From NCBI RefSeq assembly GCF_000688395.1, contig NZ_JIAG01000001.1, positions 1 through 64,000 on the forward strand: a stretch of 64,000 bases of DNA, in the 5' to 3' direction. How positions within the stretch are numbered: the stretch's first letter is position 1; each line of letters starts with the position of its first letter. The position numbers and the translations under genes were made by a program. Under the pieces are notes generated by a model. That model had not been told where the DNA came from and made no database searches. It saw only the letters and a list, made by a program, of their open reading frames with translations. Positions 54,194 to 64,000 of the stretch are shown here, in pieces. This stretch comes from Haematomicrobium sanguinis DSM 21259 (GTDB lineage: Bacteria; Actinomycetota; Actinomycetes; Actinomycetales; Micrococcaceae).

Positions 54194-54229
54194 GGGCCGC
54201 GACAGTAGACTTGTCTCATGTCGCGGCCC
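54194..54229. terminator. Terminator hairpin whose loop holds the next promoter
   Basis: Perfect 11-base arms GGGCCGCGACA (54194-54204) and TGTCGCGGCCC (54219-54229). The loop carries TAGACT (54206-54211), the -10 box of the next gene, and the right arm covers its ATG and first codons. Confidence 0.7.
54206..54211 (+). promoter_or_regulatory. -10 box TAGACT of a likely leaderless promoter
   Basis: TAGACT, six bases, then the ATG at 54218; identical layout to the asparaginase gene. Confidence 0.55.
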
Positions 54230-56524
54230 CTTGTCATCCTCCTCGAAGGACGCTCCGGCAGCGGCAAAACCAGCCTTGCACGCGAACTCGCCGACCGCCT
54301 CGCAACCGCACTGCCAAGCACCATCTCGCTTGGCACCTTTGCGCTCGAAGACACCTATCAAGGGTGGACCGGCCTGCAAGCAGGAATTGACGTCTTCACC
54401 ACGGCCATATCCAACCTTGCCAATCGCCGCAGCGCGCACTGGCCCACATGGGATTGGGAGCGCAACATACCGGGCCCGGAACGCGTCACCGCGCCAGCCG
54501 ACATCATCATTGCCGAAGGCGTCGGCGCGAGCGCGGCACTCGACATTCTCCCCGCACCGGACGCACTCCTCATCACCCTCAACGCCTCACCGGACTTCCG
54601 CAAACGTCGAGCCCTGGAGCGCGACGGCGACACGTTCCGCCCCTTCTGGGACACCTGGGCAGCGGAGGAGGACGCCTTCTTCTCCCGCGGACCTCGTCAA
54701 AGTACGACGGCGATGCTCACCCTCAGCGCAGACCATCCGGTTTGGCGCGGGGCTGGCACGGAGATGAAAAACATCGCCGATTCGGCATATACGGTTGTCG
54801 CGATGTGGCTCGTCTCGCGAGGAATCGACCTGAAAATTCCAATTGAAGAATATAAGGAGCCGAGCCGCAAGACTATCGGCTCAGCTCTCGACCCGGTCGC
54901 CCTTGCGTGTAAGGCGGATCGTCCCAACGACACTGTTCCCGCAGCCGCGCACACCGCCGACCAGCCCGCCAACCAGCCCACCGTGCCGCACCTGGACGGT
55001 GATGATGGTGGCCCACACGTGTCCGCTCATCGCTTCCTCTGGCTCGACAGTTCCAACGCCGACCAACCGGAAACGCGCAATCGCTACAGCCACTTGTTCC
55101 TTGATTCCCCCGGCGTGAGCGCGGTGACCTTCGTCCGCAAGAACCGCACCGAGTGGACGGAACTAACCGGCCCCGGGATCACCTACACTCTCCCTGTGCG
55201 TGCCTTCGACTGGCTCGCCGCACAGTGGCCGCCTTTCCCCCGGGCCGGCCACAAAGCCAGCGCCTCAGATCCGGGGAGCCTCGGCTGGGTCGGCCAGCTT
55301 AACCATGAGGTGCATTCCGCCGCCGCGGAACAACCGCACGCCTTGGAGCACCTGGCCCCGGAGCACCGCTCCGATCATGACAAACCCACCATCGTTGGCC
55401 GGCTCTTCCACGCCGACCGCGCCATCATTATTGACCACGTCAATGACAGCACCACCTTCCTGACGCAAATCGATCAACCCACCGACTGGATCCAGTCCTT
55501 TCTTGACAACCCGACCCAGCGCGGCGCGGCCCCCGCGGGAGGCGCAATTACCAAAGCCAAAACGCACTCAAGTGCGCCCGCCCACCCAACGCACCCTGCA
55601 CCCAGCCCCGCCCACTCAACCCCGATCCAACCGGACCCACGCGAGGAGGCGGGCAACGCCGTCGTGCATCATGAGGAGCAGGAGGCACCTACCTTCACCG
55701 CGCGCGACACCCGCGAAACTTACCTCGCGAAGATCGCGGCGGCGCAGGCCGAAATTGCCGAGGGCAACAGTTATGAGGTGTGCCTGACGACCGAGCTCAC
55801 CGCCCCGCGGCTCGCGGAGGACCCGCTGGAGACCTATTTGCGGCTGCGCGGCGCGAACGGTTCGGCGTTTGGCGCGTTTTTCCGCGTGGGTGAGTGGGCG
55901 ATGCTCTCCACGTCGCCGGAACGATTTGTGCAGGTGTCGCCCGCCGGGCTGATCCGTGCGGAGCCGATTAAGGGCACGCGTCCGCGCGCCGTCGATCCGG
56001 AAGAGGACGCGCGGATTGCCGCCGAACTGCGCGATTCGCAAAAGGACCGCGCCGAGAACGTCATGATCGTGGACCTGTTGCGCAACGATCTTTCGCGGCA
56101 CGCGAGGCCCGGATCGGTGCGGGTGGAACGGCTGTTTGCGATCGAAAGCTACCCGAGCGTGCACCAAATGGTGTCCACCATTGTGGCGGAATTGGGCGCG
56201 GAGGCGAGCCCGGCGCGCGCGATTGAGGCGGCGTTCCCGCCGGGGTCGATGACGGGTGCGCCCAAGGCCGCGACAATGCGGCTCCTAGCCGGACTGGAGA
56301 CACGCGAGCGCGGCCCGTATTCGGGGTGCATCGGGTATTTTGCCGATAATGGAGCCGCGGATTTATCCGTGGTGATCCGGACGCTGGTGGTGGACGGGGG
56401 CACCATGACGCTCGCGGTGGGCGGGGCGATCACCTCGGATTCGGATCCGGGCGCGGAGTGGGACGAGGTGCGCACGAAGGCGTCGGGGATTTTGCGCGTG
56501 CTGGGCGCCGCATTCCCCGGCTGA
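54218..56524 (+). CDS. P-loop kinase-like domain fused to aminodeoxychorismate synthase component I
   Basis: 768 residues. Residues 1-195 are a P-loop kinase-like domain (GRSGSGKTSL Walker A, uridine-kinase-like order, TWDWERN, VIIAEGVG). A linker of about 70 residues and a degenerate PabB N-terminal-like region (about 270-440) follow, then a Pro/His/Ser/Thr-rich linker (about 440-490) and the chorismate-binding domain (about 495-768) with PIKGTRPR (lysine nucleophile typical of PabB), VDLLRNDLSR and PPGSMTGAPK. The C-terminal part makes aminodeoxychorismate for folate with PabC, whose gene follows 40 bases on. No pabA amidotransferase is in the window. The kinase half has no known folate role. 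The start is set by the leaderless promoter. Confidence 0.85.
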   Translation: MSRPLVILLEGRSGSGKTSLARELADRLATALPSTISLGTFALEDTYQGWTGLQAGIDVFTTAISNLANRRSAHWPTWDWERNIPGPERVTAPADIIIAEGVGASAALDILPAPDALLITLNASPDFRKRRALERDGDTFRPFWDTWAAEEDAFFSRGPRQSTTAMLTLSADHPVWRGAGTEMKNIADSAYTVVAMWLVSRGIDLKIPIEEYKEPSRKTIGSALDPVALACKADRPNDTVPAAAHTADQPANQPTVPHLDGDDGGPHVSAHRFLWLDSSNADQPETRNRYSHLFLDSPGVSAVTFVRKNRTEWTELTGPGITYTLPVRAFDWLAAQWPPFPRAGHKASASDPGSLGWVGQLNHEVHSAAAEQPHALEHLAPEHRSDHDKPTIVGRLFHADRAIIIDHVNDSTTFLTQIDQPTDWIQSFLDNPTQRGAAPAGGAITKAKTHSSAPAHPTHPAPSPAHSTPIQPDPREEAGNAVVHHEEQEAPTFTARDTRETYLAKIAAAQAEIAEGNSYEVCLTTELTAPRLAEDPLETYLRLRGANGSAFGAFFRVGEWAMLSTSPERFVQVSPAGLIRAEPIKGTRPRAVDPEEDARIAAELRDSQKDRAENVMIVDLLRNDLSRHARPGSVRVERLFAIESYPSVHQMVSTIVAELGAEASPARAIEAAFPPGSMTGAPKAATMRLLAGLETRERGPYSGCIGYFADNGAADLSVVIRTLVVDGGTMTLAVGGAITSDSDPGAEWDEVRTKASGILRVLGAAFPG

Positions 56525-56558: not shown

Positions 56559-56564
56559 GTGCTT

Positions 56565-57443
56565 ATGCGATCGCTCGTTTTTCTTGATGCCAACTACCCT
56601 GGCGGCCGGGTGGCAGACGCGTCCGCGCCGCAACTGAAGGTCACCGATTTTGGTGCCACCCGCGGCGACGGCATCTTTGAAACGATGCTGGTGCGCGGCG
56701 GCGAGGTCCGCAAGCTCGATGCGCACTTGGCGCGGCTGGCCGCAAGCGCCGACATGCTGGACCTTGCAATCCCGGAAAGCGCTACCTGGCGCCGGGCCAT
56801 TGACACGGCATTGACACTGGAAGCGACCGGAGAGGATCACCTGCCCGAGGAACTCACGGTCAAGCTCATCGCGACCCGCGGGGTGGAGGGCGAGGGCGCG
56901 GCCCCGACCTGCTGGGTGCTGGTTTCCCCGCTTCCCGACGCGACGATCGCCGCCCGCGGCCGGCCCATTTCGGTGCTGCTGCTGGACCGCGGCTATGACT
57001 ACGAACTCGCCGAGCGGGCTCCGTGGCTGTTGCTCGGGGCCAAGACCCTCTCCTACGCGATCAACATGGCGGCGCTGCGCTATGCGAAAAAGTTCGGCGC
57101 GGATGACGTCATTTTCACCTCCGCCGACGGCAAGATTCTCGAGGGGCCAACCTCCACCGTGCTGGTGGCGCGGGTGGTTGACGGGGTCAAGACCTTGACG
57201 ACGCCGCTACTGGAGTCCGGGGTTCTCCCGGGGACCACGCAGTCCGCGATTTTCGAGGGCGCGCGAGCGGCCGGCTGGGAATTGGGTTACGGGCCGCTCA
57301 CCCCCTCCGACCTCCTTGGCGCCGATGGGGTGTGGCTTGCCTCGAGCGTCCGGCTGCTCGCCCCGATCAACCGCATCGATGAGCAGGACATCCCTGTCGA
57401 CGATGACCTGACCGCCGAGCTCGCCGGGTTCCTGGAGCGCTAG
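56565..57443 (+). CDS. pabC: Aminodeoxychorismate lyase (class IV aminotransferase fold)
   Basis: 292 residues. PLP enzyme that splits aminodeoxychorismate to p-aminobenzoate and pyruvate. Class IV features are visible: RGDGIFETM, the lysine region GAKTLSYAINMAALRYAKKFGADDVIF, EGPTSTVLV and GVLPGTTQ. It follows the kinase-PabB gene with its own leaderless-type promoter. A D-amino-acid or branched-chain aminotransferase is possible by fold, but the neighbour favours PabC. Confidence 0.87.
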   Translation: MRSLVFLDANYPGGRVADASAPQLKVTDFGATRGDGIFETMLVRGGEVRKLDAHLARLAASADMLDLAIPESATWRRAIDTALTLEATGEDHLPEELTVKLIATRGVEGEGAAPTCWVLVSPLPDATIAARGRPISVLLLDRGYDYELAERAPWLLLGAKTLSYAINMAALRYAKKFGADDVIFTSADGKILEGPTSTVLVARVVDGVKTLTTPLLESGVLPGTTQSAIFEGARAAGWELGYGPLTPSDLLGADGVWLASSVRLLAPINRIDEQDIPVDDDLTAELAGFLER

Positions 57444-57499: not shown

Positions 57500-57586
57500 A
57501 GAGTAACGAGCGTCGATCGCAGTACGGCCCTGACCGGATCGACCGGCAACCCTCCACCGCGGCGGGGTGCCTCAGGTGAAGACTCG
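57500..57586 (+). ncRNA. SAM-IV riboswitch
   Basis: The core CCGGCAACCCTCCACCGCGG and GGGGTGCCTCAGGTGAAGAC closely matches the actinobacterial SAM-IV consensus. Helix GTCGATC/GATCGAC (57512-57518 with 57537-57543) and the GGCCCTGA loop precede it. It lies before the rhodanese-metZ pair, where SAM binding should lower expression of homocysteine synthesis. Confidence 0.87.
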
Positions 57587-57644
57587 GCAACCCGGTTGCA
57601 AGCGTGGCTCGCGCCTGCATCGGCATTCAGGCAAGGTGACTTTC

Positions 57645-61915: not shown

Positions 61916-64000
61916 CTACCAAACCGGGCGCCACGCACCGGTGGTGACCGCGGCAGCCACGGAAGCGGCCGCAACAAACAGTACGGCCAGGCCAAAAAAC
62001 AGATCGGCGCGGCCAAAGCGTGAGGTGCGCGCCCAGCTGCGCTTCCCGCCGCCAAAGCCTTTGGCCTCCATCGTCACCGCCAGTCTGCTCGCGCGGCGAA
62101 TCGAAAGCACCAAGAGCACGAGGGCCTGCCCCAACGCCGCCTTCACGCGCGAGACTACCCCGCCTTGTGCCCCAACGCCGCGGGCCCGCCGAGCCATTGT
62201 CATGGTTTCCCACTCCTCGACGAGCAAGCCCAACAGCCGCATGGCCGCCAGCGTCCCCAACACGAAGCGCGCCGAGAGCCGCGCCTTTTGCGAGAGCGCG
62301 GTTGCCAGATCCGTGGGATCGGTCGTGATTGCCAGAACAATCGCGGGCAGGGCAATCGCCAGGGTGCGCAGCCCCATGGCGATGCCGAGCCCCAAACTCC
62401 CGGTGCTGACCGAAAGGAACCCCCAATCGAAGAGCATGGCACCGCTGTTGGGCGAGGCCACCGCAGTCGTCCACGCGACCAAAAGCGCAATGGGCACCAT
62501 AAACCAGGACCGGGCAAACAGCGTCTTCCAGCTCACACCGCCGAGCGGGTACAGCGCTAACTGCAACACGAGCGCCACCCCCGCAGACACCGGGTCCACG
62601 GTGAACGCCAGGGCAAAGGCAAGCACCAGCGTCGCCACGAGTTTCGTCAGCGGGTTCGCGCGCCAGAGCACCCCTCGCTTGAGGCCCGGATCGCCCGCGG
62701 GCGCTGAGCTACCCGACGTACCGGGCCCACCCGGCGGCTCAGTTCCGTCCGCCACCGCGCCACCGGCCACGACCAGTTCGCGCGCTCCCACCGCGTGAAT
62801 GAGTGCGCGATCGTGCGTCACCATCACCACGGCACTGCCCGCCTTGAGAGCCGCGCGCAACAAGACCACGAGCCCTCGCCACGTTCGCGAATCCTGCCCA
62901 AAGGTCGGCTCATCCAGAATCAACACCGGCGGCGAGGCGATGAGGACGCTCGCCACAGAAAGCCGCCGCTTTTGCCCGCCGGAGAGCGTGAACGGATTCA
63001 CCTCGGCCACCTCGGCGAGCCCGAGCGCATCCAGCATCTCCTCGACTCGCGCATCCACCTCGGGCTCAGATATCGACACGTCCTGATGCCGCAAACTGTA
63101 CGCGAGCTCGTCCCGCACGCTTCCGGTCACAAATTGGTGCTCGGGCTCTTGAAACACGTTGCCGATCCGGCGCACAAGTTGCTTCGCCTTCCACTTGATG
63201 GGCTCAGCCGCCGCGCCGTCGGCGAGCGCCTCCGACGCCTCAACCCGCCCGGAAATGGGCGCGAGCAAGCCGCCCAGGGTGAGCGCCAACGTCGACTTCC
63301 CGGCGCCGTTCTGCCCACTCAGCGCGAGCGCGTTCCCGGCCTCCACGCGCATATTGACGCCGGTCAGTACCGGCTTGCTCCCGGCTTCCTCGCGCGCGCG
63401 GAACTTCGACGCTGCGCGCCCCACCGAGAGTTCCCGAGTGCTCAGCGCCGCCTCCGAGCCCTTGGCTTCGGCTGACCATGCCCCGAACCCCGCATCCTCC
63501 AGCAATTTTTCGGCGCCGGGCACCCAGATCCCGGCGTCAAAAAGCTCGCGCCGATGCTCGGCAAACACCGCCCCCGGCGCCCCGTCGGCGACCACGCGCC
63601 CGCCGTGCCCGAGCACAATCACCCGATCCATGTGCTCTTGCCACTGCGCCACCCGGTGTTCAACCACCACGAGAGTCGCGCTCCGGTCCGCCAGCGCGGT
63701 CAACACCGCATCGCGAACCTGAACCACCCCATCCGGGTCCAGGTTCGCGGTCGGCTCATCCAGCAGCACGAGCCCGGGCGCCATCGCCAAAATCCCGGCA
63801 AGCGCAAGCCGTTGCTTTTGCCCGCCCGAAAGCGCGCTGGTGGAGGAATCCAGGGGTTTATGAAGTCCGACGGCGTTGAGCGCCTTCTCCACGCGGGTCC
63901 AGATTTCTGCCGGGTCAACACCCAGGTTTTCCGCACCAAAGGCGACATCGTCACCCAGCCGCGGCAACACCACTTGGGTTTCCGGGTCTTGTTGCATCAA
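61916..64000 (-). CDS. Fused ECF transporter energising module, 5' end outside window
   Basis: At least 694 residues; the start lies beyond the window. It joins two ABC ATPases and a transmembrane EcfT in one chain. The visible part of ATPase 1 (Q-loop MMQQDPETQV, signature SGGQKQR, Walker B LVLLDEPT) lacks its Walker A, which is upstream. ATPase 2 has GQNGAGKST, SGGQKRR and LILDEPT. The EcfT half (from about 450) has five or so helices with the Ala-Arg-Ala-type arms MARRARGVG and MEAKGFGGGKR. ECF modules import vitamins or metals with a separate S-protein, which is not seen. Split EcfA1-EcfA2-EcfT genes are the usual form. Confidence 0.88.
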   Translation of the reverse strand: MMQQDPETQVVLPRLGDDVAFGAENLGVDPAEIWTRVEKALNAVGLHKPLDSSTSALSGGQKQRLALAGILAMAPGLVLLDEPTANLDPDGVVQVRDAVLTALADRSATLVVVEHRVAQWQEHMDRVIVLGHGGRVVADGAPGAVFAEHRRELFDAGIWVPGAEKLLEDAGFGAWSAEAKGSEAALSTRELSVGRAASKFRAREEAGSKPVLTGVNMRVEAGNALALSGQNGAGKSTLALTLGGLLAPISGRVEASEALADGAAAEPIKWKAKQLVRRIGNVFQEPEHQFVTGSVRDELAYSLRHQDVSISEPEVDARVEEMLDALGLAEVAEVNPFTLSGGQKRRLSVASVLIASPPVLILDEPTFGQDSRTWRGLVVLLRAALKAGSAVVMVTHDRALIHAVGARELVVAGGAVADGTEPPGGPGTSGSSAPAGDPGLKRGVLWRANPLTKLVATLVLAFALAFTVDPVSAGVALVLQLALYPLGGVSWKTLFARSWFMVPIALLVAWTTAVASPNSGAMLFDWGFLSVSTGSLGLGIAMGLRTLAIALPAIVLAITTDPTDLATALSQKARLSARFVLGTLAAMRLLGLLVEEWETMTMARRARGVGAQGGVVSRVKAALGQALVLLVLSIRRASRLAVTMEAKGFGGGKRSWARTSRFGRADLFFGLAVLFVAAASVAAAVTTGAWRPVW

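Follow-up and report, generated by a model that had tools for sequence, protein, structure and literature searches.

The window, the whole 64,000-nucleotide stretch of Haematomicrobium sanguinis DSM 21259 DNA that was analysed, contains an open reading frame at 54218-56524 on the plus strand, which starts with ATG and is translated into a single 768-residue protein. An earlier note had described this frame as one protein with the motifs GRSGSGKT (Walker A), PIKGTRPR and PPGSMTGAPK, in which a uridine-kinase-like P-loop domain is fused to PabB. The translation contained all three motifs, and the fusion was borne out by the fold match and by a score above the TIGR00553 cut-off. The features of the region are as follows.

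54218..54715, plus strand: P-loop kinase domain, residues 1-166; PRK06547-like (NF005115 match) with a uridine/nicotinamide-riboside kinase fold, from model, fold and motifs
54248..54271, plus strand: Walker A motif GRSGSGKT, residues 11-18; G11, S13, G14, G16 and K17 invariant in 49 of 49 fused copies
54716..55012, plus strand: linker, residues 167-265; pLDDT below 50 at 213-265 (partly disordered), mean pairwise identity 0.36 among ten relatives
55013..55507, plus strand: N-terminal part of PabB, residues 266-430; alignable with ten fused relatives, whose mean pairwise identity is 0.51
55670..56524, plus strand: PabB catalytic core, residues 485-768 and stop codon; TIGR00553 above cut-off, PF00425 with E 5.9e-82
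56559..57443, plus strand: PabC, aminodeoxychorismate lyase, the next gene after the fusion; NF005887, 288 bits versus a cut-off of 278
61916..64000, minus strand: YkoD-like and YkoC-like transporter components in one frame, from translation and locus comparison
contig 64345-64926, beyond the window end: ykoE
contig 64980-65107, beyond the window end: TPP-like element, 51.4 bits, below the gathering score of 54.3

Residues 3-166 matched the NCBIfam model NF005115 (PRK06547, "hypothetical protein") with E 4.6e-35 and 120.5 bits, which did not reach the curated cut-off of 173 and marks the domain as a homologue outside the curated core. The PRK/uridine kinase model PF00485 matched the Walker A region only, with 20.3 bits versus a gathering cut-off of 22. 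The kinase domain was modelled with a pLDDT of 90.1, and its closest fold was that of uridine-cytidine kinase (Z 17.7 to 6n54_A, rmsd 2.7, 179 aligned residues by VIA-align, with Foldseek in agreement). Other fold matches were the N-terminal domain of yeast Tad2 (Z 17.2), phosphoribulokinase (16.1), nicotinamide riboside kinase 1 (14.8), and pantothenate kinase (13.3); the matches listed included no known thiamine kinase, an absence that excludes nothing. The model of the full 768-residue chain had a pLDDT of 73 and offered no usable interface between the kinase and PabB domains.

In the C-terminal half, residues 475-756 scored 329.7 bits against the TIGR00553 pabB model, narrowly above its cut-off of 328.4. 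The genome (2.9 Mb) contains two further chorismate-binding matches; their frames are 540 and 434 amino acids long, show only 36% and 29% identity, and are probably TrpE- and MenF-like. That no enzyme of PabB level other than the C-terminal half was found here is well supported. As the earlier note had remarked, no PabA gene is adjacent; PabC adjoins instead, and the one TrpG/PabA-type amidotransferase above cut-off (TIGR00566, G000:C4:206440-207003) is encoded on another contig, making it a partner candidate for PabB, TrpE, or both.

Three further observations concern the surroundings. A SAM-IV riboswitch (57502-57610, RF00634, 74.4 bits) lies 5′ of a rhodanese-like gene and a PLP enzyme of Cys/Met metabolism. 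The YkoD-like and YkoC-like parts share the open frame 61916-64000, so that the ATPase and transmembrane components may be fused here. In the segment 49675-54177, a phosphatase gene that is the immediate 5′ neighbour of the kinase in most relatives lies 4 kb away from it, separated by a putative DUF222/HNH-like ORF, a 2-hydroxyacid dehydrogenase, and a periplasmic binding protein.

Distribution of the fusion and separability of its domains

The N-terminal domain was found in 272 of 295 Micrococcaceae genomes, with Specibacter cremeus, Arthrobacter, Sinomonas, Pseudarthrobacter, Kocuria, Rothia, and Galactobacter among the named relatives, and 134 of the 150 matches listed lay in open frames of at least 600 amino acids. 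When 60 Micrococcaceae loci were checked (a few of which repeat a genome), 52 had both domains in one uninterrupted frame, the eight exceptions being L051, L098, L101, L115, L119, L121, L122, and L173. A quickly built tree of 174 kinase domains placed the 60 Micrococcaceae rows together on one side of a single branch (SH-aLRT 90, not starred); the window's own domain formed a long branch of unusual composition, which makes its exact position unsure. No relatives were found in viral contigs or plasmids, and a mobile origin was therefore rejected.

The earlier note had named a frameshift joining two normal genes as the case that would undo the fusion. A sequencing frameshift or missed stop has a practically negligible probability: two genomes have adjoining kinase and PabB domains in different frames (G614 and G536; L232 5193-7182 and L234 5241-7342), which may be natural splits or sequencing errors, but the single frame in 52 of the 60 loci contradicts it, and the same conservation rules out chance or artefact as the source. 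The fusion is real and shared by many Micrococcaceae, a lineage-wide domain join that looks functional. None of the papers listed in searches of an open-access library described a kinase-PabB fusion.

Both halves carry the marks of working enzymes. Among 26 positions compared in the 49 fused copies, only T18 (conserved in 45), D79 (46), and R131 (43) varied, the rest being invariant in the rows that cover them. The Nei-Gojobori dN/dS ratio of the kinase lay at 0.12-0.49 and that of the PabB core at 0.13-0.36, calculated from the 32 of 45 pairs with unsaturated synonymous differences among ten named relatives, a set without the window's gene. From the kept motifs and these ratios the kinase half looks active, and a degenerate kinase domain was ruled out; the suggestion of a domain that had lost its partner gene found no support.

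The two domains also occur apart. Kocuria (L115, L119), Arthrobacter sp. Edens01 (L121), Rothia (L122), and Galactobacter (L173) have the kinase as a free gene flanked by the phosphatase gene and pabC, and these five loci contain no PabB domain. The best PabB matches of G363, G401, G354, and G488 lie elsewhere in the genome (303-330 bits, G401 274.5, versus the cut-off of 328.4), and G399 and G416 have TrpE-level matches only (256 and 255 bits). Conversely, two genomes of genus g5 (G071, G420) have PabB alone, with the kinase missing. Outside the family, no folate-gene neighbours of stand-alone kinase relatives were found in the loci read. Consequently, the earlier proposal that the kinase step is coupled to chorismate use was left without support, since the kinase is kept at the locus where PabB is elsewhere or not found, PabB persists alone in g5, and the kinase outside the family is linked to a YkoEDC-type transporter instead of folate genes. 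The fusion is not a new step of p-aminobenzoate synthesis, and the two domains very probably work independently across the poorly conserved linker.

The same observations bear on the notion that the P-loop domain serves PabB in a regulatory or accessory role, sensing a nucleotide or modifying a metabolite of the folate pathway. The covalent fusion is maintained in many genera and PabC is close by, as such a role would lead one to expect; however, each domain is kept without the other and the stand-alone relatives have no folate neighbour in the loci read, and we regard this role as quite improbable.

Some side observations were made at these loci. In Kocuria sp. cx-455 (L115 5908-7421), the ORFs as called give a 4-base overlap between the free kinase gene and pabC, which suggests translational coupling, though PabB is gone from the locus. 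In G354, G404, and G407 (L231, L235, L240; Micrococcaceae genera g14, g118, g121), the translated PabB frames have an amidotransferase-like start and may be PabA-PabB-type proteins. The phosphatase gene adjoins the kinase in most Micrococcaceae loci; no low-molecular-weight phosphatase match was found in any of the non-Micrococcaceae loci compared, and a link between the two was dropped.

Association of the kinase with thiamine transport and metabolism

Named kinase loci were taken from the best 80 of 124 relatives, and 65 of them were non-Micrococcaceae. In 30 of these 65, a YkoC-like gene of a YkoEDC-like transporter lies directly upstream on the same strand; these loci come from Corynebacterium, Mycobacterium, Mycolicibacterium, Boudabousia, many Microbacteriaceae, and one unclassified Actinomycetes bin. 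Since free-standing relatives often follow such vitamin B1-type transporter genes, the kinase is a candidate for an as yet unidentified thiamine kinase. The ykoC-kinase order was also present in G170, G291, G320, G125, and G360. Of the 30 YkoC-linked loci, 29 were scanned (all but L179), and in 19 of these a TPP riboswitch reached the gathering score; L159 (53.9 bits) and L149 (40.5 bits) had matches below 54.3, and the other eight had none at the gathering score, L145 having none at E 0.01 either. Among the additional genomes, G125 and G360 (L276, L277) had TPP riboswitches, and G170, G291, and G320 had none at the gathering score. The riboswitch goes with the transporter, because it also precedes ykoE in three kinase-less loci (L225, L261, L265). 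We take cg1227-cg1230 of C. glutamicum to be a ykoEDC-kinase operon of this type. PMC3890552 records an observed TPP riboswitch for cg1227, part of an ABC transporter.

In the Micrococcaceae, ykoEDC is often near the kinase, mostly convergent; in the window's genome the YkoC match begins 5.5 kb past the fusion, and the TPP-like element precedes ykoE. Several findings speak against a thiamine substrate. Even in the best cases, some 10 kb separate the Micrococcaceae kinase from ykoE, and the kinase is outside the ykoE operon. On the tree the Micrococcaceae kinases branch apart from the YkoEDC-linked ones, so that function would be transferred between homologues of about 35-45% identity. No YkoC gene was upstream in 35 of the 65 stand-alone loci, among them those of Microbacterium, Intrasporangiaceae, Aeromicrobium, Actinoplanes, and Microbispora. 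YkoE occurs without kinase or thiamine pyrophosphokinase (TPK) in g5, most of f6, and f11, and in g14 the kinase is present with a YkoE match in only 1 of 11 genomes; simple kinase-YkoE co-occurrence is thus loose and was set aside as an indicator. No replacement kinase after ykoC was recognised by eye in kinase-less genomes.

TPK makes TPP directly, and a thiamine kinase would make TMP and need ThiL. TPK (TIGR01378) scored above cut-off in 3 of 48 and 13 of 65 genomes (two sets sharing three genomes). The 16 TPK-positive genomes, 15 of the 17 tested from family f4 plus G343 of f3, all lacked the kinase (no match at E <1e-6), so that the two never occurred together, an exclusion that weighs less as nearly all of these genomes belong to one family. 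For ThiL, 32 of 40 genomes had a match above cut-off, whereas the three f4 genomes showed background scores only; a ThiE match was absent in 20 of 50. The four genes were compared in 27 genomes, whose kinase status was known at selection and which include three TPK-positive f4 genomes. All six with ThiL and without ThiE and TPK had the kinase (G127, G036, G123, G360, G103, G198), and all seven without kinase and TPK had ThiE and ThiL (G071, G420, G515, G025, G142, G011, G029). The six of six, set against 17 kinase-positive genomes among the 27, gives p about 0.04 by our own arithmetic, with only three lineages represented. Sixteen genomes of the 65-genome TPK set lacking both kinase and TPK (nine f3, one f9, two f4, four f20) lie outside the ThiE/ThiL comparison. 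The distribution of ThiE, TPK, ThiL, and the kinase fits a thiamine kinase; this is suggestive and no more.

Proposed function and relation to known enzymes

The explanation we favour, at somewhat below an even chance, is a bifunctional polypeptide that combines PabB with a salvage kinase, most likely for thiamine. The C-terminal half would act as PabB does, converting chorismate and ammonia from a PabA/TrpG encoded elsewhere into aminodeoxychorismate, which passes to the neighbouring PabC. The N-terminal half would be an ATP-dependent small-molecule kinase serving vitamin salvage, not folate synthesis: thiamine imported by YkoEDC would be phosphorylated to thiamine monophosphate and handed to ThiL. 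The fusion probably arose where a kinase gene stood beside pabB in a vitamin gene neighbourhood. A thiamine-related substrate, precursors included, would be about an even bet, and thiamine itself a tentative assignment short of that. More tentatively still, the P-loop domain may represent an unrecognised thiamine kinase family that has the uridine/riboside-kinase fold and supplies the salvage enzyme missing from ThiL-dependent Actinobacteria; in the Micrococcaceae it would be built into PabB as a two-vitamin (B1 and B9) enzyme.

It is rather less likely that the substrate of the kinase half is a nucleoside or a different vitamin (uridine, cytidine, nicotinamide riboside, or pantothenate) and that the proximity of ykoEDC reflects shared regulation or chance; the fusion would still be bifunctional. 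The closest folds are kinases of exactly these compounds, and more than half of the stand-alone loci have no YkoC upstream, but an operon with a TPP riboswitch recurs in several families, and this counts against it, as does the way ThiE, ThiL, and TPK are distributed. Phosphorylation of a thiamine precursor carried by YkoEDC, hydroxymethylpyrimidine or hydroxyethylthiazole, seems improbable. ThiD and ThiM are already known kinases for these compounds, and genomes without ThiE could not use the phosphorylated products; the operon evidence (ykoC-kinase order, TPP riboswitch) applies to a precursor as it does to thiamine, and PMC6593275 names both HMP and thiamine as possible cargo of YkoEDC.

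A thiamine kinase would provide a candidate route by which many Actinobacteria that lack thiamine pyrophosphokinase could use imported thiamine, and would hint at a function for the uncharacterised family PRK06547. No paper on PRK06547 was found in the open-access library, and none of those listed for thiamine kinases dealt with this family.

Among known systems, the kinase domain is homologous to PRK06547/NF005115 over residues 3-166 and shares its invariant motifs, but it lies below the curated cut-off and is fused. With the solved uridine-cytidine and nicotinamide riboside kinases it has the overall fold in common, whereas identity is about 15-20% and PF00485 stays below its gathering score. 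If the kinase acts on thiamine, TPK would fill the same place in salvage, and none of the 16 TPK-positive genomes has the kinase; the kinase, however, is of another family and would reach TPP via TMP and ThiL instead of directly. Finally, the C-terminal half resembles PabB in its score above the curated cut-off, the PIKGT lysine motif, which is a functional motif of PabB, and the adjoining PabC, and differs from it by the extra N-terminal kinase domain and the long linker.
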